Shown piece by piece: positions 764 through 36,615 of a DNA stretch of 37,384 nt. The notes below the pieces were generated by a model. It was given only the letters and a program-made list of their open reading frames with translations. It searched no databases and was not told the origin of the DNA. The translations under genes were made by a program, and so were the position numbers. Position 1 is the stretch's first letter, and every line of letters begins with the position of its first letter. The stretch comes from Acidobacteriaceae bacterium (lineage in GTDB: Bacteria; Acidobacteriota; Terriglobia; Bryobacterales; Bryobacteraceae), in NCBI GenBank assembly GCA_019243205.1, contig JAFAUR010000627.1:1-37384 (forward strand), given 5' to 3'.

Positions 764-780
764 TCAATTCGCAAATCTGA
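764..780 (+). repeat. Left attachment repeat (attL core)
   Basis: The 17 bases TCAATTCGCAAATCTGA are identical, in the same orientation, to the end of ychF at 36599-36615. The bases on either side differ, so the identity is confined to these 17 positions, as expected for an integrase core site. There is no tRNA here. The core is a protein-coding 3' end. Confidence 0.8.
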
Positions 781-803
781 GGCGGGGGGAAATCTCAATT
801 AGC

Positions 804-1100
804 ATGAGACGACCGTTGCGAAGCTCCAGGCTGCCGGCAGGGAAGGCTGATGCCGTCGTGTGGGATGACACCTTGCCGGGAATCGGCGTTCGGTTGAGGG
901 CAGGAGGATCGAACACTTTCCTCTGTCAGTATCGCATGGGCAAAAGGCATTTTCGAAAGAAGCTTGGAAGAACGGACAGGGTCGATGTCGAGGTGGCACG
1001 CCGTGAAGCCCGGAAAGGATTTGGCAGATGCTGACGCAGGGCGCAACCCTGCCGCACAAAAGGCGAGGCTAAGGCCGCAGCCACCCTCACGCTTGGTTTT
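804..1100 (+). pseudogene. Decayed tyrosine-recombinase (phage/island integrase) N-terminal fragment
   Basis: Pieces of the arm-DNA-binding N-terminal domain of the island-type integrase family are readable in three frames. The piece TTVAKLQ (frame of 806) is followed by LPAGKADAVVWDDTLPGIG and a continuation through CQYRMGK to VARREARK (frame of 804, stop at 1032-1034). Next comes LADADAGRNPAAQKAR (frame of 1018), and finally EAKAAATLTLG (frame of 1064). Put together these give the normal order of the domain, so at least three frameshifts have accumulated. The catalytic domain with the R-H-R-Y residues is absent, because the next gene begins within 100 bases. The fragment reads away from the left repeat, into the island. 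Assignment rests on the familiar WDD-LPG-G-R-R and ARREARK pattern. Confidence 0.75.
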
Positions 1101-1160
1101 CGCACCATGACTCGGTCCACAAGCAGGTCACCGGCCTTTAGTGGCTCCGCTGCAACCAGC

Positions 1161-2387
1161 TTAGGTGCTCGCGCCAACTCGCTCTGCAAACTCGATCCAC
1201 TGCGGCAGGCAATGTCGCTTGAGGTCGAACTTATCGATGATTGTGCGGCGAGCAGCCCTGCGCAGGTGGGAAAAGCGAGAGGGATGCGCGAGCGCGTCGA
1301 TGACGGTGTTTGACAAATGGTCGATATCGAAGAAGTCGACCAGTAATCCGTTTTGACGATGAGTAATAACCTCTTCTACTGGCTTCGTCCGAGAAGCAAC
1401 GATCAGGCCCTCTGTGCTCATGGCCTCCAGGACGGACCAGGAGAGTACGAATGGGTAAGTGAGATACACATGTGCTGCCGAAACCCGCATGAGATCAACG
1501 AAGTTCGGATAGGGGATTGCGCCGACAAGGTGAACCCGATCTAACGGCAGCCGATCTCTGACTTCTCTCAAGAAAATGTCTTTCCAAGTACTGCCCAGAG
1601 GAGCCGGCTGACCATAGGAGACCTTGCTTCCTCCTACGATTACTGCATGAGCCCTGGCGCGGCTGGCCAGGATCGCCGGTAAGGCGCGCATGAAAATGTG
1701 GTAGCCGCGATAAGGTTCGAGGTTGCGCGCTGCAAAGGTGATCACCTCATCGTTGCTGTCGAGAGTGGCGCCGTCGGGCAAGGCGAAGACGGAATAAGGA
1801 CGAGGTGAAAGAAGGTCGGTGTCGATCCCCTCATGCAGGACGATAATCTTGTCATGCAGCGACACCGGAAAGCGGCTCTTCTGCCATTGCGTTGGAGCAA
1901 CGCTCCAGTCTGCATCAGCCAACGCGAGCAATATCGGAGCATTGTTCAGTCGAACGGCGTAACGAGCGTCGAAGCTCAAGTCACTCGGGAACTCGGGATC
2001 GAAATTGATATTGGCGCCTTCTGAGCGGTAGTAGAATTCCGCATGAACGATTAGTTTGGTATGGGGCCAAACGTCCTTGACAGCGGACATCTCTCCCCAT
2101 CCCACGTGACCGAAAACGAGATCGGGGATAAATCCGCGCACTTTCAATTCCAGCATGGTGCTGGCGGCTGCCCTACCTTGGATGATCTTGCGCGACACCG
2201 AACGGGCCAGGGGATGCGGGTTCCCGATCGATCGGGCATCGATTTTGTAGCGGTGGGTTGGAAGGGGCTGAGGTTGGTTGTTGGCTTCACTCGTAATCGC
2301 AACAACTTCGTGGCCTGCGCGACGTAGCGCAGGCGCAATATGACGAAATTGAGCCGGGAAGTTCTGATGAACAAATACGACGCGCAT
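1161..2387 (-). CDS. GT4-family glycosyltransferase
   Basis: A 408-residue protein with the two Rossmann halves of a GT-B fold. The N-terminus (VVFVHQNFPAQFRHIAPAL) is the acceptor-side half. The C-terminal half has the donor region AARNLEPYRGYHIFMRAL and the conserved YPFVLSWSVLEAMSTEG stretch of this GT4 subgroup. It would transfer a nucleotide-activated sugar during synthesis of a surface polysaccharide or glycoprotein, at the cytoplasmic side of the membrane; donor and acceptor cannot be read. It is the last gene of a minus-strand run of three. Its stop sits about 60 bases from the integrase remnant. Base composition of this block looks more AT-rich than the catabolic genes. The ATG is preceded by AGGA only two bases away and by a strong hairpin, see 2391-2406. 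Confidence 0.85.
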   Translation of the reverse strand: MRVVFVHQNFPAQFRHIAPALRRAGHEVVAITSEANNQPQPLPTHRYKIDARSIGNPHPLARSVSRKIIQGRAAASTMLELKVRGFIPDLVFGHVGWGEMSAVKDVWPHTKLIVHAEFYYRSEGANINFDPEFPSDLSFDARYAVRLNNAPILLALADADWSVAPTQWQKSRFPVSLHDKIIVLHEGIDTDLLSPRPYSVFALPDGATLDSNDEVITFAARNLEPYRGYHIFMRALPAILASRARAHAVIVGGSKVSYGQPAPLGSTWKDIFLREVRDRLPLDRVHLVGAIPYPNFVDLMRVSAAHVYLTYPFVLSWSVLEAMSTEGLIVASRTKPVEEVITHRQNGLLVDFFDIDHLSNTVIDALAHPSRFSHLRRAARRTIIDKFDLKRHCLPQWIEFAERVGAST

Positions 2388-2390
2388 TCC

Positions 2391-2406
2391 TGGGAGGTGC
2401 CTCCCA
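2391..2406 (-). promoter_or_regulatory. Perfect inverted repeat at the ribosome-binding region of the GT4 gene
   Basis: TGGGAGG, two bases, CCTCCCA form 7-base arms ending three bases before the ATG at 2387. On the minus-strand mRNA the left arm contains GGGAGG, a Shine-Dalgarno-like sequence, and the right arm its complement. If the hairpin forms, the only strong ribosome-binding sequence is hidden. Function is inferred; the repeat itself is plain. Confidence 0.45.
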
Positions 2407-2453
2407 ATTTGAGGTACGTCATAATTTCCAAATCAAACAGATCTTGAGCCAAG

Positions 2454-3140
2454 TTAATTGGCTATAATTGGCGGTCCTGCCCGCTCGCCCGAGGGACGGG
2501 GGATGATCTTCATTCGCCCGAGTCCGTCATCGAAGGCGACGAGCGCAACTGGGCTGCCCGCAAGGTCCTCGCCTTCAGCCATTCTTACGATGACGTGCTT
2601 TACTTTTCCGTCAGCGAAGCGCGCGGGCAGGTCCAATGCGAAGCTGCGCAAGGGCCGCCCTTCTACATGCGTCCAGCCCGTCGGAGCCGCCCTCGCCACG
2701 ATCTCGTCGTCAATGAGCGCAACCACTGTGCGCGAAGGATGTTGGGCTGCCTGCGAGAGAAAGCCGGTCAGCCGCAGTCCCGAACGCCAGTACACGCGGC
2801 CGGGGCCGTCCACGTCATGCGGAACGCTTGGTCGGGTGAGCTCTAGAGGCACGCCGACCCGATCACCGAGATTAGCGATCCTCGCTTCAACGATCATTCC
2901 GTCCGCGATCGCGGATCGAGGCAGGAAGACGGAAAAGCCATTGCAGCCGTCGCCTTCGCCGGCTCGAGCGAGCTCGTGATCGTAATCCGCCGCACGGACG
3001 ATCTTGACTACATGACCGTCAACAAGCATTTCGACGACAAATTTGCGGGAGGGGTCCTCCGTCGTATACACGTAGCCTGAAAAAAGTAGCTCCCCGCAGC
3101 GGCGGAATCCGCCCCGAAGATTGCGACCTTTTTTACTCAT
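2454..3140 (-). CDS. Glycosyltransferase-associated beta-sandwich protein, function unknown
   Basis: A 228-residue protein without signal peptide or membrane segment. It seems to contain two copies of a small beta-rich module found attached to glycosyltransferases in alphaproteobacteria. The first is at about 18-105 (SGYVYTTEDPSRKFVVEMLV, then a GDG-NGFSV-LP segment). The second is at about 115-215 (TGFLSQAAQHPSRTVVALID, then SFALDLPARFADG). A related module occurs inside the neighbouring large glycosyltransferase. The gene starts 9 bases after that gene's stop, so the two are cotranscribed and probably act together. A carbohydrate-binding or scaffold role is an inference from context. The hairpin AGCCAA/TTGGCT spans its stop codon (2447-2463). 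Confidence 0.6.
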   Translation of the reverse strand: MSKKGRNLRGGFRRCGELLFSGYVYTTEDPSRKFVVEMLVDGHVVKIVRAADYDHELARAGEGDGCNGFSVFLPRSAIADGMIVEARIANLGDRVGVPLELTRPSVPHDVDGPGRVYWRSGLRLTGFLSQAAQHPSRTVVALIDDEIVARAAPTGWTHVEGRPLRSFALDLPARFADGKVKHVIVRMAEGEDLAGSPVALVAFDDGLGRMKIIPRPSGERAGPPIIAN

Positions 3141-3149
3141 GATATTGAC

Positions 3150-5720
3150 CTACCGCGTGCCGGCCTGCAGCACGGGGCCGCACCAGGAGCAAATCTCGCT
3201 GTTGACCCTCTCCTCGGCGAGGAATGGATCGAGTCTCAGGTTGCTCCCCCGAGTTGACAGTGCACCAAAAGACCAATCGAAGAAAGCCGTTGGAAGCCCA
3301 CTTCTTCGAGCGAATCTTGCGGCAGGATGTCCGAATAGCGCACCTCGCTCCACAAGGAAGATCCGGTCACAGTCGTAGTATTGGACCAGAGATTCATAAT
3401 CGTCGGGCACTACAGCACCACTCACAAACACGTTGCCAATAGACATCAACTCCAGATCATCAAGAGTTTCACCAAATACGACCAGCAATGATTCAGGATT
3501 TCGCCGTGCTAATTCCAGTGCAAGGCTCTTGATGGCTCGGAACGTCAATGCGTTGGCACTCACAGGAAATATGCCGACGGTGCCTCCCCGCCCGGCGCGC
3601 CGTGCCGGCCGCGCTAGCGGCTCGGGCTCGGGCGTCCGAAGACGGTTCGCGATATGCGGAAGAAATCGGCGGACAAAGTGGTAACCCATGTGATCAGCGG
3701 GTATTGCGCTCTCCACTCGCGAGATGAGTTCGTCATACAATTTGCCGTTCTTCCCGATCCTAGCCGCACAAGATCTACCTACGTCGTGAAACGACCCGCA
3801 GCACTCGGTTGCAAGGCTCGAGGCACGCGGGCAAACAAGTTCCGCATTCGCCACATAAACATCAATCTTCGCGCCGAGGCTTTTCAGAAGGTCGAACACG
3901 GTTTGCGTCAGAGCCGACGGATTAAAAATTTCGATGCGCGCAATTTCAAGTTTGGTTAGATACGAGCGCAGCTTGTCCATTGCGGAACTATCGGCAGGAT
4001 CGAAGCTCAACGATTGCGGCATCTCTCCGTTGGGATTCGTAAGCGCAAGCAGGCCGGGTGAAAGTGCTGACGGCAATTCCAATATCAAACTGGCAGCGCC
4101 CTTCAAAAACCATTGCTGCGACCTGCGTTGAACGTCTGCCCATCCAGGTCCGCGGCTAGCTACGAGCAGGTGAGAAACGATGTGCGGCGTCGCTGACGCG
4201 AGTTCGAGCGCCGCGCGCGCGATTCTGAGGGGATCTGCCTTAACGAAGATCGCGGACTCAGTCTGATAGTCGGGAAAGCGTGAATTGATCTTTCGAGTAT
4301 TCTTCAGGACTAATCGACGCTTCCTGGAGCCGAATGATAAAGCACCAACGTGGCCGACATAAACGTTTGCAGCACAGATGTTACGAAAGCCCAGATGGCG
4401 GCCGCGCAAGCAAAAATCGACTTCCTCCAAATATCCATGTCCGAATTGCGGATCCAGAAATCCGACTGCGTCGAGACAGGCGCGGGTGATATAAAGACAA
4501 AAACCGATCCCGCTTGGAATATCGACCACGAGGCCTTTGTTTGCCGCTGCGGCGCGCCGGTCGAGATCTCGGACCACGCTCGCCTCCGGAATGGCATTTT
4601 CCACAAACGCTTTTGGAAAACTCGTGAATTGGCCGTTGTTGGAAAGGGGAGTTACGGTGCCTATTCGCTCAGACTGGTAAGCGGCCGCTGATAGCCGACC
4701 GATCGCGCCAGCCGGTAATAGGGTATCCGCGTTGAGTAGTACAACATCCTCATGATGGCAAAGCGTCAACGCCTTGTTGACCGACCTTGTGAACCCCAGA
4801 TTTTCGTCGTTCCAGAGGACGCGCAGCCGAGGTGATTCGTGCAAGGACTTGAGATACTCGACCAACTCCTTTTCAGGAGGATCATCGGCAACGATGATCA
4901 CGTCGTATTGCTCATATTTCTGACCGTCCTGTAGCCATTCTAGGGAGTTTCTGGTGGCCTGAAAATGCCCATAAACGGGAACGATCACTGCAACAGGTCT
5001 GTCGTCGATTGAAGCCACTGAATCTCCGGCGGGCGACGACGGTCTAACCGGGGTCGAGGCGCGAAAGGAATGTCGCATCACTAGGAAGGATTGTTCTTGC
5101 CAGGTGAGGCAAATGCGCAAATTCTCCACTTTTTGAACTGCAAAATCGAAATTAGCGGCCCTTCCGAGACATCTTGCAAGAGGATGATCTTGGCTCGAGC
5201 TGATCACGGACTCTCGCCTTGAGCCTTCGTAGTCGATCACGAGGCCGATTGTCTCCACACCGCGCCAGACCGCCCATCCTGAAACGTTTCGTTCCCCGAC
5301 CACAACTCTGCCGAATGCCGGTAGCTTACGTTCACCGATACGAAGGGCGTCGATGCTGAGCGCAAGGCACGAAGGATCCAAGCTTGTAGACACCATGGCT
5401 TCAGCAGCTGCTCGACGTTGAGTGTCGCTTCCCCATTGCAAGAGGCGACGATTGGCCTGTTCATCATCGGGGGCCATTTGCACACAACGCAAAAGCTCCG
5501 AGATCGCGTCCTCCTTTTTGCCTAAGCGGAACCTTGCCTCCGCTCGCAATATCAAGTCGGCGACTTCCGGGTGAGGCCGAGAACGACAGAGTCGGTCGGC
5601 CAGCATGAAAGCAGATTTTGCGTCTGCCCCCATCAAGGCCCTGGCAGCAAAAAGCGACAAAGTCGCCATGTGAAAGTCGCGATCAAACAACGCGGTTCGC
5701 AGGGCGGCGGGGGTATCCAC
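3150..5720 (-). CDS. Large multidomain glycosyltransferase: helical repeats, beta-module, GT2 domain, C-terminal region
   Basis: An 856-residue protein. Residues 1-120 are helical and TPR-like (ARFRLGKKEDAISELLRCVQ). Residues about 130-225 resemble the beta-module of the next gene (GRVVVGERNVSGWAVWRG). A GT2 family domain follows at about 245-500, with VAVIVPVYG, the metal-site region VVLLNADTLLP and GYLEEVDFCLRGRHLGFRN. The last 330 residues look like a second Rossmann-type, GT-B-like half with no motif I can name. GT2 enzymes add sugars to rhamnan, O-antigen or capsule chains; substrate unknown. The start is GTG, preceded only by a weak GGGAAAA. It is the first gene of the three-gene minus-strand run. 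Confidence 0.8.
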   Translation of the reverse strand: MDTPAALRTALFDRDFHMATLSLFAARALMGADAKSAFMLADRLCRSRPHPEVADLILRAEARFRLGKKEDAISELLRCVQMAPDDEQANRRLLQWGSDTQRRAAAEAMVSTSLDPSCLALSIDALRIGERKLPAFGRVVVGERNVSGWAVWRGVETIGLVIDYEGSRRESVISSSQDHPLARCLGRAANFDFAVQKVENLRICLTWQEQSFLVMRHSFRASTPVRPSSPAGDSVASIDDRPVAVIVPVYGHFQATRNSLEWLQDGQKYEQYDVIIVADDPPEKELVEYLKSLHESPRLRVLWNDENLGFTRSVNKALTLCHHEDVVLLNADTLLPAGAIGRLSAAAYQSERIGTVTPLSNNGQFTSFPKAFVENAIPEASVVRDLDRRAAAANKGLVVDIPSGIGFCLYITRACLDAVGFLDPQFGHGYLEEVDFCLRGRHLGFRNICAANVYVGHVGALSFGSRKRRLVLKNTRKINSRFPDYQTESAIFVKADPLRIARAALELASATPHIVSHLLVASRGPGWADVQRRSQQWFLKGAASLILELPSALSPGLLALTNPNGEMPQSLSFDPADSSAMDKLRSYLTKLEIARIEIFNPSALTQTVFDLLKSLGAKIDVYVANAELVCPRASSLATECCGSFHDVGRSCAARIGKNGKLYDELISRVESAIPADHMGYHFVRRFLPHIANRLRTPEPEPLARPARRAGRGGTVGIFPVSANALTFRAIKSLALELARRNPESLLVVFGETLDDLELMSIGNVFVSGAVVPDDYESLVQYYDCDRIFLVERGALFGHPAARFARRSGLPTAFFDWSFGALSTRGSNLRLDPFLAEERVNSEICSWCGPVLQAGTR

Positions 5721-6397: not shown

Positions 6398-7363
6398 CTA
6401 GGGTTGAGGGGCGCGATCCTCACGCGGCCGCCTGCCATATTCGGCCGAGTAACGGCGTGCGAAATGCGACCCAGAAACAAAGCCATTGGCGACTGCAACA
6501 TCGAGGATGGAACGGGTTCCGTGCATCAGCATCTTGCGAGCGCTTTGTAACCGCAACTGACGATAAAAGCTTTTCGGGGAGCGCCCGAGGACTTGCCGAA
6601 AGCGGCGCTGAAGGTGCCGAAGCGAGAGCCCAGATATCTCGCACAGCCGCTGTAAGGACAACGGGTCCTCCACATTGTTTTCCATGGCCTCGATTACGAC
6701 CAGCAGTCGGGGGTCGGTGACACGAGTCCGAAATTGGAGAGACATGCGCTGTGGATCGCGTGCGCTGCGTACACCATGCTGGAGAAGCTCCTCGGCGGTG
6801 TCCCAGGCGAGATCGCGGCCATGCTGCTTTTGGATTAGAAAAAACATCATGTCGAGCGAGGCTGTGCCACCAGGACAAGTCATGCGATCGCGATCGACCT
6901 CGAAAAGATTGGTCGTTAGCAGCAGATCCGGGAATTCGCGGGAGAAGCGCTCGATTTCCTCCCAGTGCAGCGTGCAACGATAGCCCTTGAGCAGTCCAGC
7001 GCGGGCCAGCGCATAGGTGCCGGTGCCAATGCTGCCCAAGGTCACCTTGTTTCGCGCCAGGCGTCTCAACCAAGCGAAGACGCGGCGATTGACGTATTTG
7101 CTTCCTCCAACACCCGCGCAGAAGAACACGATCGGCAGTCCCCCGGCATCGGACATGGCCGCATGCGGATGCATGGCAATGCTGCTGCTCGGAATCACGG
7201 GCCCGCCATCTTCAGATATGAGAACCCATTCATAAAGTGTCCGGCCGCTCACCCAATTGGCGACGCGCAGCGCCTCGATCGCTGCCGTGAAAGCAAGCAT
7301 CGGAAAGTCGGGGACGATAAAGAATCCCACCCGAAAAGGGACGCGGGGAGGCGCCTCTGTCAT
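6398..7363 (-). CDS. GlxA-family transcriptional regulator (DJ-1/PfpI-like sensor plus AraC HTH)
   Basis: Residues about 10-185 form a class-I glutamine-amidotransferase-like (DJ-1/PfpI) domain (VGFFIVPDFPMLAFTAAIEA). Residues about 215-310 are an AraC-type double helix-turn-helix (LSLQRLCEISGLSLRHLQRR, ending YSAEYGRRPRE). In family members the elbow reads SICTG. Here it reads GSIGTG, so the nucleophile Cys is Gly and the domain can only be a ligand sensor. Relatives such as GbdR and CdhR activate catabolism of glycine betaine and carnitine, so an amine or amino-acid-like inducer is a fair guess. It diverges from the SDR-aldolase-Dpp operon, its probable target. The ATG at 7363 is preferred; a GTG at 7375 is in frame but only 3 bases from the AGGAGG. 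Confidence 0.85.
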   Translation of the reverse strand: MTEAPPRVPFRVGFFIVPDFPMLAFTAAIEALRVANWVSGRTLYEWVLISEDGGPVIPSSSIAMHPHAAMSDAGGLPIVFFCAGVGGSKYVNRRVFAWLRRLARNKVTLGSIGTGTYALARAGLLKGYRCTLHWEEIERFSREFPDLLLTTNLFEVDRDRMTCPGGTASLDMMFFLIQKQHGRDLAWDTAEELLQHGVRSARDPQRMSLQFRTRVTDPRLLVVIEAMENNVEDPLSLQRLCEISGLSLRHLQRRFRQVLGRSPKSFYRQLRLQSARKMLMHGTRSILDVAVANGFVSGSHFARRYSAEYGRRPREDRAPQP

Positions 7364-7396
7364 CAATATCCCCACTCTCCTCCTGTGGCGTTCTCA

Positions 7397-7440
7397 GACA
7401 AATTCGTGGCGCATAGCGACCAGACCAGGCCAAATTTGTC
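7397..7440. promoter_or_regulatory. Interrupted inverted repeat between the GlxA-type regulator and the SDR operon
   Basis: GACAAATT at 7397-7404 faces AATTTGTC at 7433-7440. The arms start 36 bases apart, with further matched positions inside. The 124-base gap between the divergent starts must hold both promoters, so this is the best candidate operator for the AraC-type regulator. Not experimentally known. Confidence 0.4.
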
Positions 7441-7487
7441 AATCTAGAGTGCGCCGCAAACTGCCACAGACATGCCGGATAGACGAA

Positions 7488-8330
7488 ATGAGCGACAAGT
7501 ACTTAGCGGGAAAAGTGGCGTGGGTAACGGGAGGTGCCTCCGGCATGGGGCGCGCGACGGCGCTCGCGCTGGCGCGAGCCGGGGCGCACGTCGCGATCGG
7601 CTCGCTGGTCGCTTCGTCGCGCGGCGCTGCGGTTCTGCCGGGCCAGAACTGCCACACACCCGCCGATGATGCGCTTGAGGCGACGAAGTGCGCCATTGAG
7701 TCCGTGGGAGTGCGGGCTATGGCGCTGCCCCTTGACGTCTGTTCAGATGAGTCCGTGCGTGCCTTCCACGCGGTCATACGGGACACCCTTGGCGAGGTTG
7801 ATGTGCTGATCAACGCCGCGGGATCCTCCGTGCGTCAGTTCATCGCCGATCATTCGGACGAACTTTGGTACCGCATGCTCGATGTGAACCTCACGGGGCC
7901 CTACCGCACCATCAAGCTCTGCTTGCCAGGCATGATGAGCCGCCGCTGGGGACGGATCGTCAATTTCGCGTCGACCGCGGCGAATATCGGGTACCCGATG
8001 CACGGCGCCTATTGCGCATCGAAATCGGGCCTGCTGGGGCTCACCCGCTGCGTCGCTCTCGAAGGCGCGCCGTTTGGCGTGACCTGCAACGCGATCAATC
8101 CAGGGTTCGTCGACACCGAAAGCAACTACGCGGCTTCCCAAATGGAAATCGAGATCGCCGGGCTTGACACCACGGTCGACGCATACCGGGCCGGCATCGC
8201 GGCCAGCCTGCCGCAGAAGCGATATCTGAAGCCCGACGAAGTCGCCGCTTTCGCAGCTTTTCTGTGTCGACCCGAAGCGCTCGGCATCGAGGGACAGGAC
8301 ATCACCATCGCGATGGGCTCCCAATGGTAA
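7488..8330 (+). CDS. Short-chain dehydrogenase/reductase
   Basis: A 280-residue classical SDR. It has the NAD(P)-binding TGGASGMG near residue 15, INAAG for the central strand, the catalytic Ser in NFASTAANIG and the Y-x3-K pair in AYCASKSG. It ends with the usual C-terminal GQDITIAMGSQW. The segment between the second strand and the next helix is about 20 residues longer than normal and contains a Cys-His pair. It would oxidise or reduce a hydroxyl/keto group of the compound handled by this operon. The start is the ATG at 7488, because upstream sequence in the same frame has no homology. Its last codons overlap the start of the aldolase gene (ATGGTAA), indicating translational coupling. Confidence 0.9.
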   Translation: MSDKYLAGKVAWVTGGASGMGRATALALARAGAHVAIGSLVASSRGAAVLPGQNCHTPADDALEATKCAIESVGVRAMALPLDVCSDESVRAFHAVIRDTLGEVDVLINAAGSSVRQFIADHSDELWYRMLDVNLTGPYRTIKLCLPGMMSRRWGRIVNFASTAANIGYPMHGAYCASKSGLLGLTRCVALEGAPFGVTCNAINPGFVDTESNYAASQMEIEIAGLDTTVDAYRAGIAASLPQKRYLKPDEVAAFAAFLCRPEALGIEGQDITIAMGSQW

Positions 8331-9106
8331 GTCGCAAACCCGCGCATTCCGCAGCCACGCGGCCCGCGACCGCCAAGCGCTCCGTTCCGGCACTCGCCTT
8401 CTGGCTCGAATATGCCAGCTTGCCCGCTTGCGAGATCGCGGCGCAGGCCGGCTACGACGCGGTGATCTTCGATCTCGAGCACGGGATCATTCCCCAGCAG
8501 GACGCCGATCGACTTGCCTTTGCCTGCAAGAAGCTTGGGCTCACCGTCTATTCTCGCGTCGCTGCGGCCGGACGTGTTTCCATTCAGCATGCGCTCGATT
8601 CCGGGGTCGACGGTGTCATTCTTCCGCAGATTTTGAACGCAGCGCACGCGCGTGAGGCGACCGCCTATACCAAGTATCCACCGCTTGGTACCCGCGGCGT
8701 CGGCTACAGCAGGACCATGAATTACGGCGCCGTCACGCCCGGGTTCTTCGACGACGAGAACGCGCGCTGCCTTTGCTTCCCGATGATCGAGACGGTTGGC
8801 GCATTGGCGGAAGTCGACGCCATTGCAGCCCTCAATACGGTCGACGGCTTGTTCGTCGGCCCGAGCGATCTTTCAATGGCGCGTGGGCGAGGAGCCTTCG
8901 CGGCGACGGATGACGACTTGGGCGATCTGGCAGCGGTCGCCACGGCTGCGGCGAAGGCCGGCAAAGTCTGGGCGCTCCCAGCGCCGAGCCGAAAAATCTT
9001 CAATTTTGCTGTTCGACATGCGGCCGCGCTTGTGACCGTTTGCGACGATCTTACTGCGCTGGGACTCGGCTTTGCTCAGGGTCTCGCGGTGGCGCAGCGA
9101 CGCTGA
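8324..9106 (+). CDS. HpcH/HpaI-family aldolase
   Basis: A 260-residue class II (metal-dependent) aldolase of the HpcH/HpaI or 2-dehydro-3-deoxyglucarate aldolase family. Visible signatures are YDAVIFDLEHG (base/loop), GVDGVILPQI, the metal-ligand Glu in FPMIETVGAL and the Asp in FVGPSDLSMARG. Family members cleave 2-keto-4-hydroxy acids into pyruvate (or a small keto acid) and an aldehyde. The N-terminal 20 residues are a basic, poorly conserved extension. The ATG overlaps the SDR stop codon, so SDR product and aldolase substrate may be consecutive. The exact substrate is not readable. Confidence 0.88.
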   Translation: MVSRKPAHSAATRPATAKRSVPALAFWLEYASLPACEIAAQAGYDAVIFDLEHGIIPQQDADRLAFACKKLGLTVYSRVAAAGRVSIQHALDSGVDGVILPQILNAAHAREATAYTKYPPLGTRGVGYSRTMNYGAVTPGFFDDENARCLCFPMIETVGALAEVDAIAALNTVDGLFVGPSDLSMARGRGAFAATDDDLGDLAAVATAAAKAGKVWALPAPSRKIFNFAVRHAAALVTVCDDLTALGLGFAQGLAVAQRR

Positions 9107-9133
9107 AGCCATGATGTCTTCCAATCGCAGCAC

Positions 9134-14477: not shown

Positions 14478-14503
14478 ATGGTCGCCTCAAGCTCTGCAGC
14501 GCA

Positions 14504-20018: not shown

Positions 20019-20198
20019 TCTTTTCTCCAGTTTCTTAAGGCCTCGAAGCGGCGACTGTTGGAGTTTCCGCGTGTCCGTTCCCCTCGACCAGCAAAAGTTA
20101 AGTTTGGTGAACAAGCACCAGCATGTAGAACGCCGATAGGCGTCAAGAAAACTATATGAGCTTAGCGCTGCAAGCTGGGAGCACAACAGGCCATCCGC

Positions 20199-21725: not shown

Positions 21726-21824
21726 CGCACCTCTCCTTTGGGTCAGCGTGTTTATTTTGGCAGCACGTGTATGGTTCTAGCGAGCTAAAAGCCGCCGGCC
21801 GTTGCATGTAGTTTCCAAAAAAAA

Positions 21825-26671: not shown

Positions 26672-26701
26672 TCTGCGGCGCCGTCGGTCCTCCTGGGAGA
26701 A

Positions 26702-28926: not shown

Positions 28927-29684
28927 GCACGCTTCTTAAGGTCGTCTCATTGTACTGCGGCTACGGCGCGGATGAAATTATTCACGGCGTAGACCTCCAC
29001 GTCGCCCCGGGCGAGATCGTCACGATCCTAGGTCCGAATGGCTGCGGCAAGACCACGCTTGTCAAGGCGATTCTCGGCTACGTCCGCGCAAAAAAGGGGT
29101 CGATCCTCTTTCGCGATGCGAATATCACCCAACTGCCTCCAACGGAGCGGGTGGCGCGTGGCATTGGCTATGTTCCGCAACTCCTCAACACTTTCAAACC
29201 ACTGACCGTCGTTGAGAATCTCGAACTCGGAGGCTATCGCCTTTCCTCGGCGGGCCGGCATGCTGCGATCGAGCGTATGTTTGCCCTATTTCCGCTGCTG
29301 GCCGAGCGACGCTCGCAACGGGCTGCCACGCTGTCAGGGGGCGAGCGGCAGCTCCTCGCAATGGCACGCGCGCTGATCGTGTCGCCGAGCTTAGTATTTC
29401 TGGACGAGCCGTCGGCTGGACTGTCGCCGGTGCGCGCTGACGAAGTGTTCCAACATGTGAGAGCTATTGCGGCGGCCAATGTGGCGGTCGTCATCGTTGA
29501 GCAGGACGTGCATCGCGCCTTGGAAGTTTCGGATCGGGCCTATGTGCTCGTCACCGGACGCGTCGTCCTGCATGGTCCGGCCGCTGACATTGCTGTCGAC
29601 GAGCGGGTTCGCGGCGCCTATCTCGGCGTGCGCGAGACGCCCAGGCCAAGCGAAGTGATCCAGCAGGAGAGACAGGGAGGATGA
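28923..29684 (+). CDS. Branched-chain-type ABC transporter ATPase, LivF-like (second system)
   Basis: A 253-residue ATPase. It has Walker A GPNGCGKTT, the LivF-type region GIGYVPQLLNTFKPLTVVENL, signature LSGGERQLLAMARA and Walker B LVFLDEPSAGLSP. It partners the LivG-like ATPase in front of it. The last bases carry GGGAGG, the ribosome binding site of the binding-protein gene, whose ATG begins one base after the stop. Confidence 0.92.
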   Translation: MSTLLKVVSLYCGYGADEIIHGVDLHVAPGEIVTILGPNGCGKTTLVKAILGYVRAKKGSILFRDANITQLPPTERVARGIGYVPQLLNTFKPLTVVENLELGGYRLSSAGRHAAIERMFALFPLLAERRSQRAATLSGGERQLLAMARALIVSPSLVFLDEPSAGLSPVRADEVFQHVRAIAAANVAVVIVEQDVHRALEVSDRAYVLVTGRVVLHGPAADIAVDERVRGAYLGVRETPRPSEVIQQERQGG

Positions 29685-29685
29685 A

Positions 29686-30960
29686 ATGAAGAATTTGAGC
29701 AAGGATGCTTTGATTGGTCGCCGTTCGATCCTTAAGGGAGCGATCGCGGTAGGAGCAGGCGCGACGGCGCTGCCGTTATCAATTGCCGCGCAGGCGCAGT
29801 CGAAAGAACCAGTCAAGATCGGGGTGATCATTGGCCTGACAGGGTCGGCGGCGGTCGCAGGCAACGACAGCTACAAGGCGATTCAGCTCGCAACCGAGGA
29901 GGTGAACCAAGCTGGTGGTGTGCTCGGGCGGTCAATCACACTCGTCGCAGAGGACGACGAGGGACGACCTAAATCGGGCGTCGAGGCCGCCAACAAATTG
30001 GCCGATGTCGACAATGTGGCAGCCTGCATCGGCGCCTACCAGAGCTCGATTGCGCTACCTGCCGGTCGCGTGCTGAACGACAAGGGCGTCGTTTGGGTGA
30101 CCGACGCTACGACCAATGAACTCAAGACCGTCGGTCCTTATTGCTTCGACACTGCCGGAATCGCAGAGCAGGCTGTGGCGCTCGTCGATTTCGTCAAATC
30201 CGACAAGCCCGACGCGAAGAAGTTGACCGGCATTTTCGAGAACAACCCGATCGGCCAGGACCGTCAGAAGGTCAGCGAAAAACGCGCCAAGGAGCTGGGC
30301 CTCGAATGGCTGCCGGCACTGCTGTACCAGCCCGGAGCGGCCGATTTCCGCACTGAGCTACAAAACGTCGTTGGCCTCAACGCGGACGCCATTCTTACTG
30401 ACATCTACGACAACGACGCACCGATCATTCAGCGACAGCTGGTAGAACTCGGGATGGGAGACTTCCGCAAGGTCTATTCCTACAATCCCGGTGCCTACGG
30501 CACCCTCGAGCCGAACCTGACGGAGGGCATCAAAGGTCTCAACTACATCACGGGTGGCATTCGCGCAGCCGCCTTCGGCAAAAAATTCCAGGAGAAATAC
30601 GGGCACATTTTTACCGACGCCTGGGGCGGGCCGCCGTTCTACGATGCTCTTTGGATTGTGGCGACCGCGATCAACTTGGCCAACAGCCTCGACCGCAAGA
30701 AGATCCGCGACAGCATGTGGCCCGCGGCCTATCACTACTTCGGTGTCTCTGGTAACGGCGACAAGGGTTTCAATAAATGGGGCAAGCAGGCTTCCGACCA
30801 ATACGAAAAGCTTGTTTTCAAGGGGGGCAAAATGGTGCCGCTTTCCACCGGAGCCGAAAATATCGTGGTGTTTCGCTACCCCGATGATCAGGGGACGCCG
30901 CTGCAGTTCGCGCCGAGTGAACAGCAGTTCCAGCAGCTCTATCCCTCCTACAAGCCTTGA
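29686..30960 (+). CDS. Branched-chain-type substrate-binding protein with Tat signal (second system)
   Basis: A 424-residue periplasmic binding protein, type I. The N-terminus carries a twin-arginine signal (GRRSILKGAIAVGAGATALP) with cleavage near AAQAQS; the first system's binding protein has a Sec signal instead. The mature part begins PVKIGVIIGLTGSAAVAGND, as in the ABC-type amino-acid/amide-binding group. YDNDAPIIQRQLVELGM and DAWGGPPFYDALWIVATAIN line the cleft region. Export folded through Tat may mean a bound cofactor or fast folding. A very strong hairpin follows the stop codon. Confidence 0.9.
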   Translation: MKNLSKDALIGRRSILKGAIAVGAGATALPLSIAAQAQSKEPVKIGVIIGLTGSAAVAGNDSYKAIQLATEEVNQAGGVLGRSITLVAEDDEGRPKSGVEAANKLADVDNVAACIGAYQSSIALPAGRVLNDKGVVWVTDATTNELKTVGPYCFDTAGIAEQAVALVDFVKSDKPDAKKLTGIFENNPIGQDRQKVSEKRAKELGLEWLPALLYQPGAADFRTELQNVVGLNADAILTDIYDNDAPIIQRQLVELGMGDFRKVYSYNPGAYGTLEPNLTEGIKGLNYITGGIRAAAFGKKFQEKYGHIFTDAWGGPPFYDALWIVATAINLANSLDRKKIRDSMWPAAYHYFGVSGNGDKGFNKWGKQASDQYEKLVFKGGKMVPLSTGAENIVVFRYPDDQGTPLQFAPSEQQFQQLYPSYKP

Positions 30961-30966
30961 TCGGTG

Positions 30967-30989
30967 GGCCGGGGCCCGAGGCCCCGGCC
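30967..30989 (+). terminator. Strong GC hairpin after the binding-protein gene (attenuator or mRNA stabiliser)
   Basis: Ten-base arms GGCCGGGGCC and GGCCCCGGCC with a CGA loop begin six bases after the stop codon. No T-run follows, so it is not a classical full terminator. In transporter operons such a hairpin typically protects the upstream message and lowers the downstream one, giving more binding protein than permease. Confidence 0.6.
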
Positions 30990-31024
30990 GGATCTCCGCA
31001 CGTTCGTCGGGAATCGCCGTATCA

Positions 31025-31942
31025 ATGAACTTTGTCCAGGTTCTCGTCAACAGCCTCATTACGGCTTCGGAGCTCGGCATCATTGCCATCGGCCTGACGC
31101 TATCGCTGTCGCTTCTGCGCTTCGCCAACTTCGCCCATGTGGAGACCGCGGTCGCAGGAGCCTACATCGCCTGGCTACTGAATTTCCCGCTGAAGCTGAA
31201 TTTCGCCCTCGCCGTGCTGGCGGCGGTCCTCGTCATGGGCGTTGCTGGCGTGGTCATCGACCGTTTGGTGTTTCGAATTTTCCGCAATTCAGACGACATG
31301 GCCCCGATGATTGCCTCACTGGGCCTCTCCATCGCGATCCGCTACACGGTGCAGGCAACATTCGGCCCAGGTTTCCTGCGCTATGACTTCGGCATTGCGC
31401 CAGGCATGCGGCTGCTTGGCGCTTTTGTGACGCGTCAGCAGCTGTGGATCCTCGCCATTGTCAGCATCTCCCTCCTCTGTTTTCACCTGCTCCTGCAATA
31501 TTCGATGATCGGCAAGGCGATGCGCGCCACAGCCACCAACCGCGAGCTTGCTCAGGCAAGCGGTGTGGATACAGAGCGGGTCATCGCCTGGGTATGGTTT
31601 CTGGGCACAGGCTTTGCCGCGCTCGGCGGCGCGCTCGTCGCCTGGGATACTCAGCTCGTACCCGATCTCGGATTCAACCTCGTCATTCCGATCTTCTGCG
31701 TGGTCCTCATAGGAGGAGTCGGATCGGTTTATGGTGCGCTTCTGGGCGCGCTTGTCGTCGGCTTTGCTCTAAATTTCGGCGTGGCGATCGACTTCGGCCA
31801 GCTGGTGAATTGGATCAGCGGCAGCGACCTCCTCGGCCATCTGCGCATACCGGCCGATTATAAACCGGCGATCGTCTATGGAGCCGTCGTGCTGGTCCTG
31901 CTGCTGCGCCCAAGTGGGCTGATACGCCGGGAGCTGGACTGA
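31025..31942 (+). CDS. Branched-chain-type ABC transporter permease, LivH-like (second system)
   Basis: A 305-residue inner-membrane protein starting at the ATG of MNFVQVLVNSLITASELG; an open frame continues upstream through the binding-protein gene but is not conserved. LivH landmarks are IIAIGLTLSLSLLRFANFAH, the coupling segment MRATATNRELAQASGVDTER and the late IFCVVLIGGVGSVYGALLGA. About eight hydrophobic segments. GGGA lies 12 bases before the ATG, a weak site, in keeping with lower expression behind the hairpin. Confidence 0.9.
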   Translation: MNFVQVLVNSLITASELGIIAIGLTLSLSLLRFANFAHVETAVAGAYIAWLLNFPLKLNFALAVLAAVLVMGVAGVVIDRLVFRIFRNSDDMAPMIASLGLSIAIRYTVQATFGPGFLRYDFGIAPGMRLLGAFVTRQQLWILAIVSISLLCFHLLLQYSMIGKAMRATATNRELAQASGVDTERVIAWVWFLGTGFAALGGALVAWDTQLVPDLGFNLVIPIFCVVLIGGVGSVYGALLGALVVGFALNFGVAIDFGQLVNWISGSDLLGHLRIPADYKPAIVYGAVVLVLLLRPSGLIRRELD

Positions 31943-31954
31943 AGGATCGCGCCC

Positions 31955-32818
31955 ATGGATCAGCTCACCAACTTCGCCGTCTACATGATAGCGATCACAA
32001 GCATCTCCTTCATTTTGGCGATCAGCCTCGATCTGCAGGTGGGAAATTGCGGCATTGTCAATTTCGGCCAGGTCGTTTTCCTCGTGGTCGGCGCCTATGC
32101 GACGGCGATCGCGATTGCCGCCGGAACCGGCGTCGCCACGGCCATTTTGATCGCGGTCGTATCTGGGGCGCTATTCGGCATCCTCATGTCTCTCTCAGTG
32201 CGGAACATGAGCGGCACCTATTGGGGCATCCTGTCGCTCTCGATGGCCGAGATCGTGCGAATTGTCGCGCTGAACGAGCAATGGCTCACAGGTGGCGCCA
32301 ATGGCATTTCCGTGCTGATCTCCGTGCCCGGTCTGCCGTGGATCATCGCTGCCTCGGCGGTTGCCGCGTTTGGCCTCGTTCGCCTCCTCATCGCCTCGCC
32401 TTTCGGTCGGACGATCCGACTTATTCGCGAGGGCGATCGGCTGCCGCTGTCGCTTGGCAAGAACGTCCTCCTCTTCAAAATGGAAACGATGGCAATCGGT
32501 GGCGCGATCGGCGGGCTGACGGGCGCCTACTACGCCCTCATGCAACGCTACATGAGCCCAGATGACGCCAAGCCCATTGAGACCTTCGTCATCTGGGCGA
32601 TGGTTATCGTAGGAGGCCGCGGCAACGTCTGGGGTATCGTGCTTGGGACAGTCGTCATCCAGGCCTTTTATACCGGCACCCGCTTCCTGACAGGCCTCTT
32701 CGGAATTGAAGCCGACACGATGGCGGCGCTGCGGCTCGTTGTCATCGGGCTTCTGATCATGGTGGTGTCCATGTTTAGGCCACAGGGACTGCTACCCGAG
32801 CGCCGCCGCATCTATTGA
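31955..32818 (+). CDS. Branched-chain-type ABC transporter permease, LivM-like (second system)
   Basis: A 287-residue permease, shorter than the LivM-like protein of the first system because it lacks the N-terminal extension. Landmarks are LDLQVGNCGIVNFGQVVFLV, GTYWGILSLSMAEIVRIVAL and WAMVIVGGRGNVWGIVLG. The usual coupling loop is shortened to IRLIREGDRLPLSLGKNVLL. A good GAAGGA site lies 8 bases upstream. The stop is followed after 17 bases by the flavoprotein gene. Confidence 0.9.
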   Translation: MDQLTNFAVYMIAITSISFILAISLDLQVGNCGIVNFGQVVFLVVGAYATAIAIAAGTGVATAILIAVVSGALFGILMSLSVRNMSGTYWGILSLSMAEIVRIVALNEQWLTGGANGISVLISVPGLPWIIAASAVAAFGLVRLLIASPFGRTIRLIREGDRLPLSLGKNVLLFKMETMAIGGAIGGLTGAYYALMQRYMSPDDAKPIETFVIWAMVIVGGRGNVWGIVLGTVVIQAFYTGTRFLTGLFGIEADTMAALRLVVIGLLIMVVSMFRPQGLLPERRRIY

Positions 32819-32835
32819 TCCGGGAGAACGCAATC

Positions 32836-34404
32836 ATGAAGACTTACGATGCCGTTGTGGTCGGCGCCGGTCACAATGGCTTGGTCGCGGCGAGTTACCT
32901 TGCGCGCAACGGACTTTCAATACTGGTCGTCGAGCGCAGCGATCGAATTGGCGGCGCCTGCATCACAACCGAGATTATTCCAGGCTTCAAAGTATCTATG
33001 GCGGCCCAGCTCTTAGGCATGCTGCGGCAGCGCATTATCGATGACCTCGAACTTGAGCGTCACGGGCTGCACTTTCGGTTCCGCGATCCGGAAATCTTCG
33101 TGCCATTTCCGGATGGTCAGCATGCCTTCTTCTACCCGGACGTTGCGCGCACAGTCGCAAGCCTTGCCGGCATTGCGCCCAAGGACGCTGCCAGTTACGC
33201 CCAATTCGACGATCACACGACGCGGATCGCCCGTATCGTCGGCGATTTTATGCTGAGGCCCCAGCCGACCATGGCGCAATTTGCCGCGGCATTCAATGCG
33301 CCGGACGGCGCCCAGATGCTCAACAGCGTGCTCTTTTCTAGCATCGCAGATTATCTGGAACGATTTTTCGAATCCGACTACGTCCAAGGCCCGATGGCTT
33401 ATGGCGCGATGTCGGGTTCTGATCAGAGTCCCTACGCCGCGGGGACGGCGTTCTCGAAATTTTATCACGGCGCCGCCGAACTGGGGGGCCGCTTTGGCCA
33501 CTGGGCAATCGTCGAGGGCGGGATGGGCTGTGTCACACAGGCGCTCGCGCGCGCCCTGCACAGCTACGGCGGGATCATCCGCCTCGAAGCTCCCGTCTCT
33601 CAGATCCTCTTCCGCCACGGCCGTGCCGCAGGCGTTGTGCTCGAAAATGGCGAGGAGATCGAAGCAGCCGCTGTGCTTTCCAATGCCGATCCCAAAACAA
33701 CTCTCCTGAAGCTGACGCCAAGGGCGGCGCTCGATGAAGAGCTCCGCGGTAGGGTCGCGCGGTTGAAGGCCAAGGGCTCCGGCGTGAAGATCAATTTTGC
33801 GCTCGCCGAACTCCCCGATTTTAAGTCCCTGCCTGGAAAGACGCCCGGTCCGCAACATCGTGGGGGCATCATGATCGCGCCCTCGCTCGACTACTACGAT
33901 CGCGCCTGGGACGAAGCGCGGCGCGGACTGCCCGCAACTAGTCCATTCAGCCAAATGGTTATTCAATCAGCGACCGATCCGACCGTGGCGCCCGAGGGCA
34001 AACACACTCTTTCTCTATGGTGTCATCACTTTCCCTACGCGCTCGCCGAAGGCGACATCGACAATGAGCGCGAAAAGATCGCCGATCGTATGACGGATAT
34101 TTTGACTGATCTTGCCCCAAATTTCCGAGCCTCGGTGCTGGCCCGACAAATCTTCGTGCCAGTAGACATTGAGCGCGTCTACGGCATCGAGGGCGGACAG
34201 ATCTTTCACACGGAGCTCGTGCCCGAGCAGGTGCTCTGGAACAGGCCGATTCCCGGCCACAGCGGCCATGGCGATCTGGTGCCTGGACTTTACCTTTGCG
34301 GTGCGGGAACCCATCCCGGCGGCGACGTCAATGGCGCCCCGGGCTTCAATGCGGCACGCGCCCTTCTCGGCGACATTGCCGGCGCTCAGCTTAAGCGGAG
34401 CTAA
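32836..34404 (+). CDS. Phytoene-dehydrogenase-like FAD-dependent oxidoreductase (COG1233 type)
   Basis: A 522-residue flavoprotein. The FAD-binding fold is at the N-terminus (DAVVVGAGHNGLVAASYLAR, then VVERSDRIGGACITTEIIPG). A C-terminal FAD contact is LYLCGAGTHPGGDVNGAPGF. This branch of the carotenoid-desaturase superfamily is widespread outside carotenoid pathways and oxidises unknown small substrates. No carotenoid gene is nearby, so carotenoid synthesis is unlikely. The start ATG at 32836 has GGGAG nine bases upstream; an earlier TTG overlaps the permease stop. Its place directly after the transporter suggests it acts on the imported compound. Confidence 0.82.
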   Translation: MKTYDAVVVGAGHNGLVAASYLARNGLSILVVERSDRIGGACITTEIIPGFKVSMAAQLLGMLRQRIIDDLELERHGLHFRFRDPEIFVPFPDGQHAFFYPDVARTVASLAGIAPKDAASYAQFDDHTTRIARIVGDFMLRPQPTMAQFAAAFNAPDGAQMLNSVLFSSIADYLERFFESDYVQGPMAYGAMSGSDQSPYAAGTAFSKFYHGAAELGGRFGHWAIVEGGMGCVTQALARALHSYGGIIRLEAPVSQILFRHGRAAGVVLENGEEIEAAAVLSNADPKTTLLKLTPRAALDEELRGRVARLKAKGSGVKINFALAELPDFKSLPGKTPGPQHRGGIMIAPSLDYYDRAWDEARRGLPATSPFSQMVIQSATDPTVAPEGKHTLSLWCHHFPYALAEGDIDNEREKIADRMTDILTDLAPNFRASVLARQIFVPVDIERVYGIEGGQIFHTELVPEQVLWNRPIPGHSGHGDLVPGLYLCGAGTHPGGDVNGAPGFNAARALLGDIAGAQLKRS

Positions 34405-34406
34405 CC

Positions 34407-35141
34407 ATGTCGCGGGTTCTCATCGTGACCGGCGGAAGCCGCGGCATTGGGGCAGCGATTTCGCGCCTAGCCGCGGGCGATGGCTGGGATGTTTGCGTCA
34501 ACTATGTCGCCCATGCCGAGCGCGCCAAGGAGGTTGTCGAGTCCGTGCGCGCTTGTGGACGCGAGGCAGTGGCAGTCGAGGCCGACGTTTCGCGCGAAGG
34601 AGACGTGCTGGCGCTCTTTGCTGCTTGCGAGGAAGCGCTCGGCGCGCCGACCGGCCTGGTCAACAACGCCGGGATTATTACCGGCTTCGGGCGGCTCGAT
34701 AATCTGGCCGATGAGGACCTGCGCCGCACCTTCGAGGTCAACACGATCTCGTATTTCCTATGCGCGCGCGAAGCGATAAAACGGATGTCCACGCGCCATG
34801 GCCGCCGGGGCGGCGTGATCGTGAACATCTCCTCGCGTGCCGCCACGTCAGGAATGCCTGGGGAATATGTGCACTATGCCGCCTCCAAGGCGGCTGTTAA
34901 CGGCCTCACCAGGGGACTTGCGCTGGAAGTCGCAGCGGAAGGCATCCGCGTCGCGTCAGTAAGCCCCGGGCTAATTGATACGGAAATCCAGCGGCCCGAG
35001 CGCTTCGCCCGTATCGCACCAACGACACCTATGCAGCGTGCCGGCACTCCGGACGAAGTAGCAGAGGCGGTAGTCTGGCTTTTGTCTGACAAGGCATCCT
35101 ACGTCACTGGGGCGGACCTCTCCGTCACAGGCGGCCGCTGA
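34407..35141 (+). CDS. Short-chain dehydrogenase/reductase (second)
   Basis: A 244-residue classical SDR with NAD(P) motif TGGSRGIGAAI at residue 8, central NNAGI, the catalytic Ser in VNISSRAATSG, Y-x3-K in YVHYAASKAAV, and the end GADLSVTGGR. It is close in pattern to 3-oxoacyl-ACP or sugar/polyol dehydrogenases and not closely similar to the SDR at 7488. It begins two bases after the flavoprotein stop, with GGAG inside that gene as ribosome binding site. Last gene of the plus-strand operon. Substrate not readable. Confidence 0.9.
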   Translation: MSRVLIVTGGSRGIGAAISRLAAGDGWDVCVNYVAHAERAKEVVESVRACGREAVAVEADVSREGDVLALFAACEEALGAPTGLVNNAGIITGFGRLDNLADEDLRRTFEVNTISYFLCAREAIKRMSTRHGRRGGVIVNISSRAATSGMPGEYVHYAASKAAVNGLTRGLALEVAAEGIRVASVSPGLIDTEIQRPERFARIAPTTPMQRAGTPDEVAEAVVWLLSDKASYVTGADLSVTGGR

Positions 35142-35333
35142 AGACAACTCGGTCATCAGCTCACCGCCAAAAATTCAGACTATTGAAATAAGACGATCCG
35201 TCCGACCATACAGCCATGTCGGGGCAATCAGCGACCGAGACGCCGATCGGAACAAACAACCGCGCACGCGGAAGAGTGTAGCCCTTCCTGTCGGACGGCA
35301 GGCGACCACCTCGCGCTTAAACAGTTCGCGGCG

Positions 35334-36236
35334 TCAGGCGGCACGGCTCTCGCGTGAGGCGTAACCTTCGCGCACTATTTTCATGGCCTTCTCGACTTGC
35401 GCCAGCTCGGAAGGTGTGAGCGGTAGGACTGGCCGGCGACATTCGCCAACCGGCCTGCCCGATAGGTTGGCCGCAGCCTTCGCGACCGGGTTGAAGGGAA
35501 GCGTCCAAAGCAAAGTATTGAGGGGCTGGAGGCGTCGCCACAGCGAAACAGCTTCGGACAGTTTCCCCGCCAAAACGTAATCATACATCTCGACGAGTTC
35601 GCCGGCGATCGCGTTGCCTGCACCAGTGAAGCAACCTGCAGCTCCGGTTATGAGGCTATACAGATTCAGGTAGTCGCAGCCGTTAAAGACCGCCGCCCCC
35701 TGTGCGGCCAACTGCTCAATTCGCAGCATGTTCGACGTGCTGTCCTTGATGTAGCGAATCGTCTCGATCTCACAAAGACGTTGATATACGGCCGGCGTGA
35801 TATCAAATCCCGTGAACTGGGGAATATTGTAAACCATTATGGGTGTGGGCACGGCTCGGGCTATCTGTTCGTAGTGCCATCGGACACCGCTCTCGCCAGG
35901 TCCCTCAAAAAAAGGCGGCAGAACCAGCAGCGCGTCGGCTCCGACGCCTTCCGCATGCTTTGCAAGCTCGATCGCGTTTTCTGTGCGTAGCGCCGAAGTC
36001 TGGACGATCAGCTTCGCCCGCCCATCGATGCGCTTTGCTGCTATTTCCGCAATTTGTCGCTTTTCCGGGTCAGTCAGGAAAGGAAATTCCCCTGTTCCAC
36101 CATTGACAGCTATGATGTGGACCTTGGCTTTGAGCATGGAGTCAATGTGTGCTTCAAGAGCGTCCACGTTGAGCGACTCGCCCTTGGTCGTAAATGGCGT
36201 GCAGATTGGCACGCAAATGCCTTTGAGCTCACTCAT
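35334..36236 (-). CDS. Dihydrodipicolinate-synthase-family lyase/aldolase
   Basis: A 300-residue TIM-barrel class I lyase (DapA/NAL family). The Schiff-base Lys164 lies in YIKDSTS, the Tyr136 in VYNIP, and the keto-acid-binding loop reads GGTGEF (residues 46-51), where DapA has G-T-T-G-E. Family alternatives are 2-keto-3-deoxygluconate aldolase, 5-keto-4-deoxyglucarate dehydratase, 4-hydroxy-2-oxoglutarate aldolase or the pyrroline-4-hydroxy-2-carboxylate deaminase of hydroxyproline breakdown. The catabolic setting argues against lysine synthesis. GGAAGGA lies 7 bases before the ATG. It converges with the SDR gene over 192 bases in which I see no convincing terminator, and it is the last confident gene of the island. 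Confidence 0.88.
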   Translation of the reverse strand: MSELKGICVPICTPFTTKGESLNVDALEAHIDSMLKAKVHIIAVNGGTGEFPFLTDPEKRQIAEIAAKRIDGRAKLIVQTSALRTENAIELAKHAEGVGADALLVLPPFFEGPGESGVRWHYEQIARAVPTPIMVYNIPQFTGFDITPAVYQRLCEIETIRYIKDSTSNMLRIEQLAAQGAAVFNGCDYLNLYSLITGAAGCFTGAGNAIAGELVEMYDYVLAGKLSEAVSLWRRLQPLNTLLWTLPFNPVAKAAANLSGRPVGECRRPVLPLTPSELAQVEKAMKIVREGYASRESRAA

Positions 36237-36427
36237 TTTCGTTTCCTTCCCGAATAGCGGACTTCACGAACCAGGCAACGCGATGTCCTAAGTGCACATA
36301 ATTCAAGTCTCGTAAATTCCAAAAGTTCTCAATCGGCCACTCAAGTTTCACGTGTTCGGTGGGCTGGCAGCAACTTCGGTAGCTGCGTTAGGCCGTCGCC
36401 ATGTCAAATCGATTTTAACAGCCCGCG

Positions 36428-36577
36428 TTATGCCGCGATACAAGAGATCGAAGGCACGCCTTTGACCGTTTGAACCGATGAGGCTCCTTCCAAGCAGCTC
36501 TGGATCAGTTCTTCCAACTCTCTGTCGTCAGCCAAATCTCTCTCGGCCTTCAACTCGCGTTCTGCCTCCGCTTTCAA
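36428..36577 (-). CDS. Possible 49-residue small protein at the right island junction
   Basis: A TTG with AAGGAGG four bases upstream opens a 49-codon frame starting 21 bases after the ychF stop. The product is acidic and helical in its first half (KAEAERELKAERDLADDREL, then EELIQSCLEG) and has a short C-terminal tail with a Cys. I recognise no family. Being just inside the right attachment repeat, it would be transcribed by read-through from ychF. The strong ribosome binding site is the main support. The remainder of 36237-36598 holds the upstream region of the lyase gene and nothing else I can name. Confidence 0.35.
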   Translation of the reverse strand: MKAEAERELKAERDLADDRELEELIQSCLEGASSVQTVKGVPSISCIAA

Positions 36578-36598
36578 CCTGCCTCCTTGTTTGCGATT

Positions 36599-36615
36599 TC
36601 AATTCGCAAATCTGA
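36599..36615 (+). repeat. Right attachment repeat (attR core) inside the end of ychF
   Basis: Identical to 764-780. On the minus strand it spells the last residues of YchF (Arg-Phe-Ala-Asn) and the TGA stop, so insertion to its left leaves the protein unchanged. The C-terminal HFRF of YchF is strongly conserved, which makes a reliable target for an integrase. Confidence 0.8.

Follow-up and report, generated by a model that had tools for sequence, protein, structure and literature searches.

Genomic islands are found in the 3' ends of several protein-coding genes, among them guaA, prfC and icd. According to excerpts of the papers concerned, SGI1 is such an island in the 3' end of trmE (PMC8409611), and dusA, a conserved protein gene, is the specific target of an integrase family whose islands occur in many bacteria (PMC4482086). 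The gene ychF also appears in this literature: pneumococcal prophages integrate beside it with short direct repeats of 14-26 bp (excerpts of PMC6375853, PMC8637289 and PMC10383233), and a predicted prophage clade of Staphylococcus aureus is listed with YchF, RpsF, RpsR and an integrase among its genes (excerpt of PMC8460829). Here we describe an island of about 36 kb in the 3' end of ychF, in a stretch of 37,384 nucleotides (the window) that is the entire contig JAFAUR010000627.1 (C1118) of an assembly filed as Acidobacteriaceae bacterium, GCA_019243205.1.

The element appears to be a decayed genomic island of a known kind at a target that is apparently undescribed: among the matches listed from the portions of full text searched, none named the ychF 3' end as an island site. 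The counted text of a study of Escherichia coli defence islands (PMC10121019) likewise contains no ychF, with its supplementary tables outside that search, where prior notice is possible. Like the SGI1/trmE-type islands, the window island would have been inserted by a tyrosine recombinase, with short direct repeats and with the end of the conserved target gene restored; it differs in its target, its decayed integrase and its metabolic cargo. The dusA islands, as the excerpts present them, hit the 5' end of their gene whereas ychF islands use the 3' end, and the ychF case draws on distinct integrase sequences from two islands and not on a broad survey. The pneumococcal prophages, in the text available, lie upstream of ychF in intergenic DNA and alter the promoter region, whereas the window island occupies the 3' coding end.

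The end of ychF is duplicated around a derived insertion

The 17-bp sequence TCAATTCGCAAATCTGA stands as a direct repeat at 764-780 and at the end of ychF, as the initial annotation had proposed, and its copies are identical at 17/17 positions (Table 1). They lie 35,835 bp apart from start to start, with 35,818 bp intervening. The right copy reads as the reverse complement of the final 17 nucleotides of ychF with its stop codon. By a first-order Markov model, chance would supply 5.5e-6 further exact copies per strand in 36.6 kb. The ychF product (PF06071 match, 1.1e-38) ends in ...DVLHFRFAN*; insertion of the island left the YchF C-terminal end intact. The opposite flank carries a MaoC-type gene (PF01575 match, 5.5e-23). 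At the right core (window 36590-36610) there is also an inverted repeat, TTTGCGA-7 bp-TCGCAAA, whose fold is not significant (z -1.41). Such inverted repeats are the form typical of tyrosine recombinase core sites.

A near-identical relative, G385, preserves the site without the island, as had been foreseen for island-free strains: ychF and maoC are adjacent, and the 17-bp core, with up to 2 mismatches allowed, is present once in the contig. Window positions 36599-37384 align to 18998-19783 of this locus (L155) at 98.1% and window positions 1-780 to 18235-19014 at 97.6%, the two flank alignments overlapping by exactly 17 bases. G385 was drawn from the family of the Microvirga genome, a set of 248 genomes. 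In more distant relatives maoC follows the ychF stop after 39 bp (G408 and G323) or 146 bp (G358), and among 38 of the best 40 YchF-match places in the family set, maoC starts within 2 kb of ychF in 20 and at 2-7 kb in 8, and was not found near ychF in 10, 2 of which have less than 5 kb of downstream DNA. The empty site in G385, together with the ychF-maoC neighbourhood in relatives, therefore makes the island derived and precise, and the gene order of about 36 kb is not the core synteny that would have spoken against an island.

An integrase relic and the route of insertion

Beside the left repeat lies the integrase remnant noticed in the initial annotation. Its open frame of 76 amino acids (804-1034) begins 23 bp inside the repeat, and alignments to related integrases pass the stop of this frame to about 1097, with single rows reaching 1148 and 1250. 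The match to PF13356 (Arm-DNA-bind_3) scores 20-22.9 bits, under the curated cut-off of 27, and no PF00589 match was found at the relic. The best 25 rows of related integrases match this stretch at E 1.2e-19 to 3.4e-7, and searching the window with these integrases gave no further match at E up to 0.01. Relatives of the relic are present in 55 of the 248 family genomes.

With a duplicated core, an intact ychF end, an empty site and an integrase relic at one end, the locus is very probably a site-specific genomic island that entered the 3' end of ychF as a circular element by means of an Arm-DNA-bind_3-type tyrosine integrase. The 17-bp core on the presumably circular element would have recombined with the same 17 bp at the ychF 3' end of a Beijerinckiaceae-like alphaproteobacterial chromosome, the reaction being catalysed by the integrase whose relic would be what is left beside the distal attachment site. 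This integrase would later have decayed, and since no catalytic domain is left, the island would now be fixed unless a recombinase acts in trans.

Several observations weigh against this account. The window integrase is reduced to a relic. In 42 loci with relatives of the integrase, neither a YchF match nor, in the 500 bp upstream, the ychF-tail pattern was found, so that ychF specificity of the relic's integrase clade is unsupported beyond the window; these loci are the best-scoring ones, two pairs cover the same contig, and for the window's own locus (L032) the row corresponds to the MaoC protein, all others starting at the integrase match. The spacing from core to integrase is just 23 bp in the window, and three relatives (L130, L131 and L133) carry a tRNA-end-like stretch 192-201 bp upstream of the integrase, ARAGORN calling no whole tRNA in 40 relative-integrase loci. 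At E up to 10 the relic gave no blastp match to the E. coli integrases described below, though a query of 76 residues makes this a weak test; the PF13356 domain type is common to both, below cut-off in the relic. Finally, a second copy of the ychF end (its last 17 nucleotides, up to 2 mismatches) was found downstream of ychF in 0 of 136 loci of relatives.

How did the cargo come to lie between such exact ends? The insertion may have been site-specific and the cargo acquired stepwise, an element in ychF losing half of its integrase and its transfer genes while metabolic genes accreted by recombination; we regard this as a serious possibility that falls a little short of an even chance. It fits the fading of integrase homology by about 1097-1250 and the lower GC content of the glycosyltransferase block (56.1% versus 60.0% in the remainder), and parts of the central 19.9 kb of cargo recur in 6 of the 248 family genomes at 64-75% DNA identity (E up to 1e-80). 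A Pfam scan of 35 island open reading frames (ORFs; 37 proteins less ychF and a wrong-frame flank ORF) found no relaxase, no type IV secretion gene and no phage structural, packaging or replication gene. Both island ends are still exact, however, and the same scan recognised no transposase inside the island. That a different recombinase placed the element in ychF, the relic stemming from an older, unrelated insertion, is unlikely: the absence of ychF from the 42 best-scoring loci with relatives of the relic would suit it, but the relic sits 23 bp inside the repeat, the expected place of an element's own integrase, and no other trace of a recombinase turned up in the window. An assembly chimera, or a transposition that duplicated a 17-bp target, is very improbable even in a source bin with an estimated contamination of 6.08%, as no transposase was recognised, both flanks match a single G385 locus at about 98%, and the duplicated unit stops exactly at the stop codon, as it does in E. 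coli islands with a complete integrase.

Islands at the same gene end in Escherichia coli

A query made from the K-12 ychF end matched 5,372 of 5,426 E. coli genomes, and in 5 of the 40 matches listed the aligned part ends no more than 2 bp from the ychF stop codon. In strain FDAARGOS_1266 a tyrosine integrase begins 214 bp past ychF, in HCM-27C-1 213 bp past it, and both strains have islands located between ychF and dhaR. Comparison of the empty-site strain A21 with these two gives overlaps of 12 and 13 bp, respectively, at the ychF 3' end (FNV-stop), and the empty strain Seattle 1946 gives the same 12-bp overlap with FDAARGOS_1266; the copy-to-copy distances of the repeats are 26,058 and 38,142 bp. 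PF13356, PF22022 and PF00589 are all over cut-off in the integrases adjoining ychF. Of the 5,426 genomes, 627 have the integrase-ychF junction and 682 the empty one. These numbers represent sampled lineages and not events: the integrases of the two fully opened islands are 96.7% identical, and two further strains each carry one of the two.

By annotation the E. coli cargo is defence-like, with retron Ec67, an ABC-three component system, helicases and a NACHT protein, and a second recombinase is annotated beside radC (L243:22220-48265; L244:1166-39294). In K-12 the region beside ychF looks like an island remnant, because about 90 bp of the island end are retained next to the gene, followed by the autotransporter gene ycgV, while the distal junction is lost (L273:2980-6721). 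These dhaR-ychF islands resemble the window island in occupying the same gene end, in duplicating its last codons and stop, in their PF13356-type integrase and in their size (26 and 38 kb); they differ in having a 12-13 bp core of other sequence, a complete integrase on the ychF side and defence-like cargo.

The 3' end of ychF is thus used in two bacterial classes by different islands, as the comparisons of empty and filled sites in both demonstrate, and this use, rather than the window's own island, is the more interesting part of the finding. Separate islands at this gene end in the window and in E. coli mean that an ordinary protein gene can be a repeated docking site. Why do some protein genes, like tRNA genes, attract integrases? 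The ychF end offers a clean test case, and a conserved tail used for integration in separate classes tells where cargo is to be sought, defence-like in E. coli and metabolic in the window. The gene is present in most bacteria, and its tail would offer an integration site in most of them. A broader idea, for and against which we give equal weight, is that the widespread, conserved tail of ychF is to protein-coding genes what the 3' end is to tRNA genes, several integrase lineages having converged on it in different classes, each restoring the YchF C-terminus. The original suggestion that very many bacteria would present the same site needs a correction: the gene end is reused in E. coli, but the cores differ in sequence and length (17 bp versus 12-13 bp).

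Recurrence among relatives and in viral contigs

The proposal of a recurrent hotspot is borne out by the E. coli integrase islands and finds no counterpart among relatives of the window, where the 136 loci without a second ychF-end copy comprise 79 named loci with a ychF stop (of 80), the 38 family loci and 19 hand-picked family loci. The named loci are mostly, not all, labelled Alphaproteobacteria, and named and other sets may share species. Downstream DNA in the first 118 loci reaches at least 9 kb in 91 and at least 14 kb in 33, so larger islands could be missed. Similarity searches with the E. coli integrases and 59 others revealed integrase-like genes downstream of ychF in 2 of 137 loci (L103 and L108); both were rejected as ychF islands, their integrase lying about 3 kb past ychF and adjoining a tRNA-Ser. 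The FRFAN-stop pattern matched 160 of the 248 family genomes, the remaining 88 having other YchF tails. Twelve genomes have at least two matches: in 9 the listed copies, of differing sequence, sit on separate contigs or over 0.8 Mb from each other, and in G375, one of the other three (with G514 and G521), no second copy was found in the 15 kb past ychF.

Targeting of the ychF end is shown for an alphaproteobacterium and E. coli, and adjacency suggests further cases in IMG/VR. Contig L245 carries an integrase 58% identical to the E. coli one, 192 bp past another ychF end, and the E. coli integrase yielded 436 tblastn records in the phage collection, all below 60% identity. Fifteen further IMG/VR contigs have a ychF relative, and in 6 of them an integrase match lies past ychF. 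Three of the 6 were set aside, L283 and L288 for a tRNA-Met between ychF and the integrase and L287 for a tRNA-Arg before the integrase; in L280, L281 and L286 the interval from ychF to the start of the integrase is 53-217 bp, and no tRNA was detected in it. A search for a distal copy of the ychF end yielded just 12-base matches and nothing convincing in the available stretches of L280, L286 and L287 or within L245, L281 and others, so L245, L280, L281 and L286 count as adjacency only. Scanning IMG/VR with E. coli YchF turned up no confirmed relative, and MT835517.1:13000-20500 (L292), filed as phage, was rejected: it holds a whole ychF and looks like bacterial chromosome.

Origin of the contig

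Judged by its sequence, the window is most likely mis-binned alphaproteobacterial, Beijerinckiaceae-like DNA, because its YchF is nearer to alphaproteobacterial matches than to those of the assembly's own order and the assembly carries a second ychF. Among the matches listed, the window YchF is at most 54% identical to YchFs of that order, whereas its best named matches are 76-79% identical (Microvirga, Methylobacterium, Beijerinckiaceae and others) and that of G385 is 99% identical; the second YchF is 51% identical to that of E. coli and 49% to that of the window. The contig, probably mis-binned and bearing an immobilised metabolic island, is therefore uninformative on the nominal host genome.

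Cargo and surroundings of the island

Pfam matches at E up to 0.001 were obtained for 30 of the 35 island ORFs and none for the other 5, and the recognised cargo is mostly metabolic or transport (Table 1).

Table 1. Features of the window and their coordinates
Feature	Positions	Strand	Remarks
MaoC-type dehydratase gene	3-725	-	PF01575; 3' end cut; neighbours ychF in empty site
Distal attachment-site copy, maoC side	764-780		17 bp; identical to ychF 3' end
Integrase relic	804-1097	+	N-terminal arm-binding region onwards; stop 1032-1034; no catalytic domain found
GT4 glycosyltransferase, protein without Pfam match, GT2 glycosyltransferase	1161-5720	-	Cargo; GC 56%
AraC-type regulator	6398-7375	-	Cargo; DJ-1/PfpI-like N-terminal match below cut-off
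Short-chain dehydrogenase, HpcH/HpaI aldolase, methyltransferase	7257-9973	+	Cargo
Peptide/nickel-type ABC transporter	10118-13547	+	Cargo; two permeases and double ATPase
Cupin protein and family-5 substrate-binding protein	13602-16105	-	Cargo
Three enolase-superfamily (MR/MLE) enzymes	16329-20186		Cargo; one +, two -
Proline racemase/trans-3-hydroxyproline dehydratase-like enzyme and FAD amino-acid oxidoreductase (DAO)	20661-23051	-	Cargo
Branched-chain-amino-acid-type ABC transporter, set 1	23182-27820	-	Cargo; 5 genes
Branched-chain-amino-acid-type ABC transporter, set 2	28156-32818	+	Cargo; 5 genes
Flavin amine oxidase/CrtO-like protein, short-chain dehydrogenase, DapA-family enzyme	32815-36236		Cargo; first two +; DapA-family enzyme -, 35334-36236
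ychF-side attachment-site copy	36599-36615		Last 17 nt of ychF with stop codon
ychF, 3' part	36599-37384	-	PF06071; 261 codons; 5' end cut by contig end; frame intact

None of ten proteins passed a curated NCBIfam cut-off among the matches listed (the best was trans-3-hydroxyproline dehydratase, 417.9 of 550 bits), so the exact substrates of the cargo are inferred. The island may be kept for the uptake and breakdown of hydroxyproline-, sugar-acid- and amino-acid-like compounds. A PHROGs search with 4 proteins returned two matches for the protein at 3150-5720, one to a glycosyltransferase and a weak one (E 0.0086) to a tail chaperone; PADLOC models matched none of 5 proteins, and megablast of the island against plasmids gave no match.

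The ychF-maoC gap itself varies, measuring 2.9-7.2 kb with no integrase detected in L043, L160, L168, L171, L177, L179, L180, L181 and L184, and is a plastic spot with small insertions of other origin. The G385 contig that holds the empty site also carries an integrase near a tRNA-Gly (L176:8324-8398; G385:C426:29803-30303), about 8.5 kb away on the 5' side of ychF, which probably belongs to another island.

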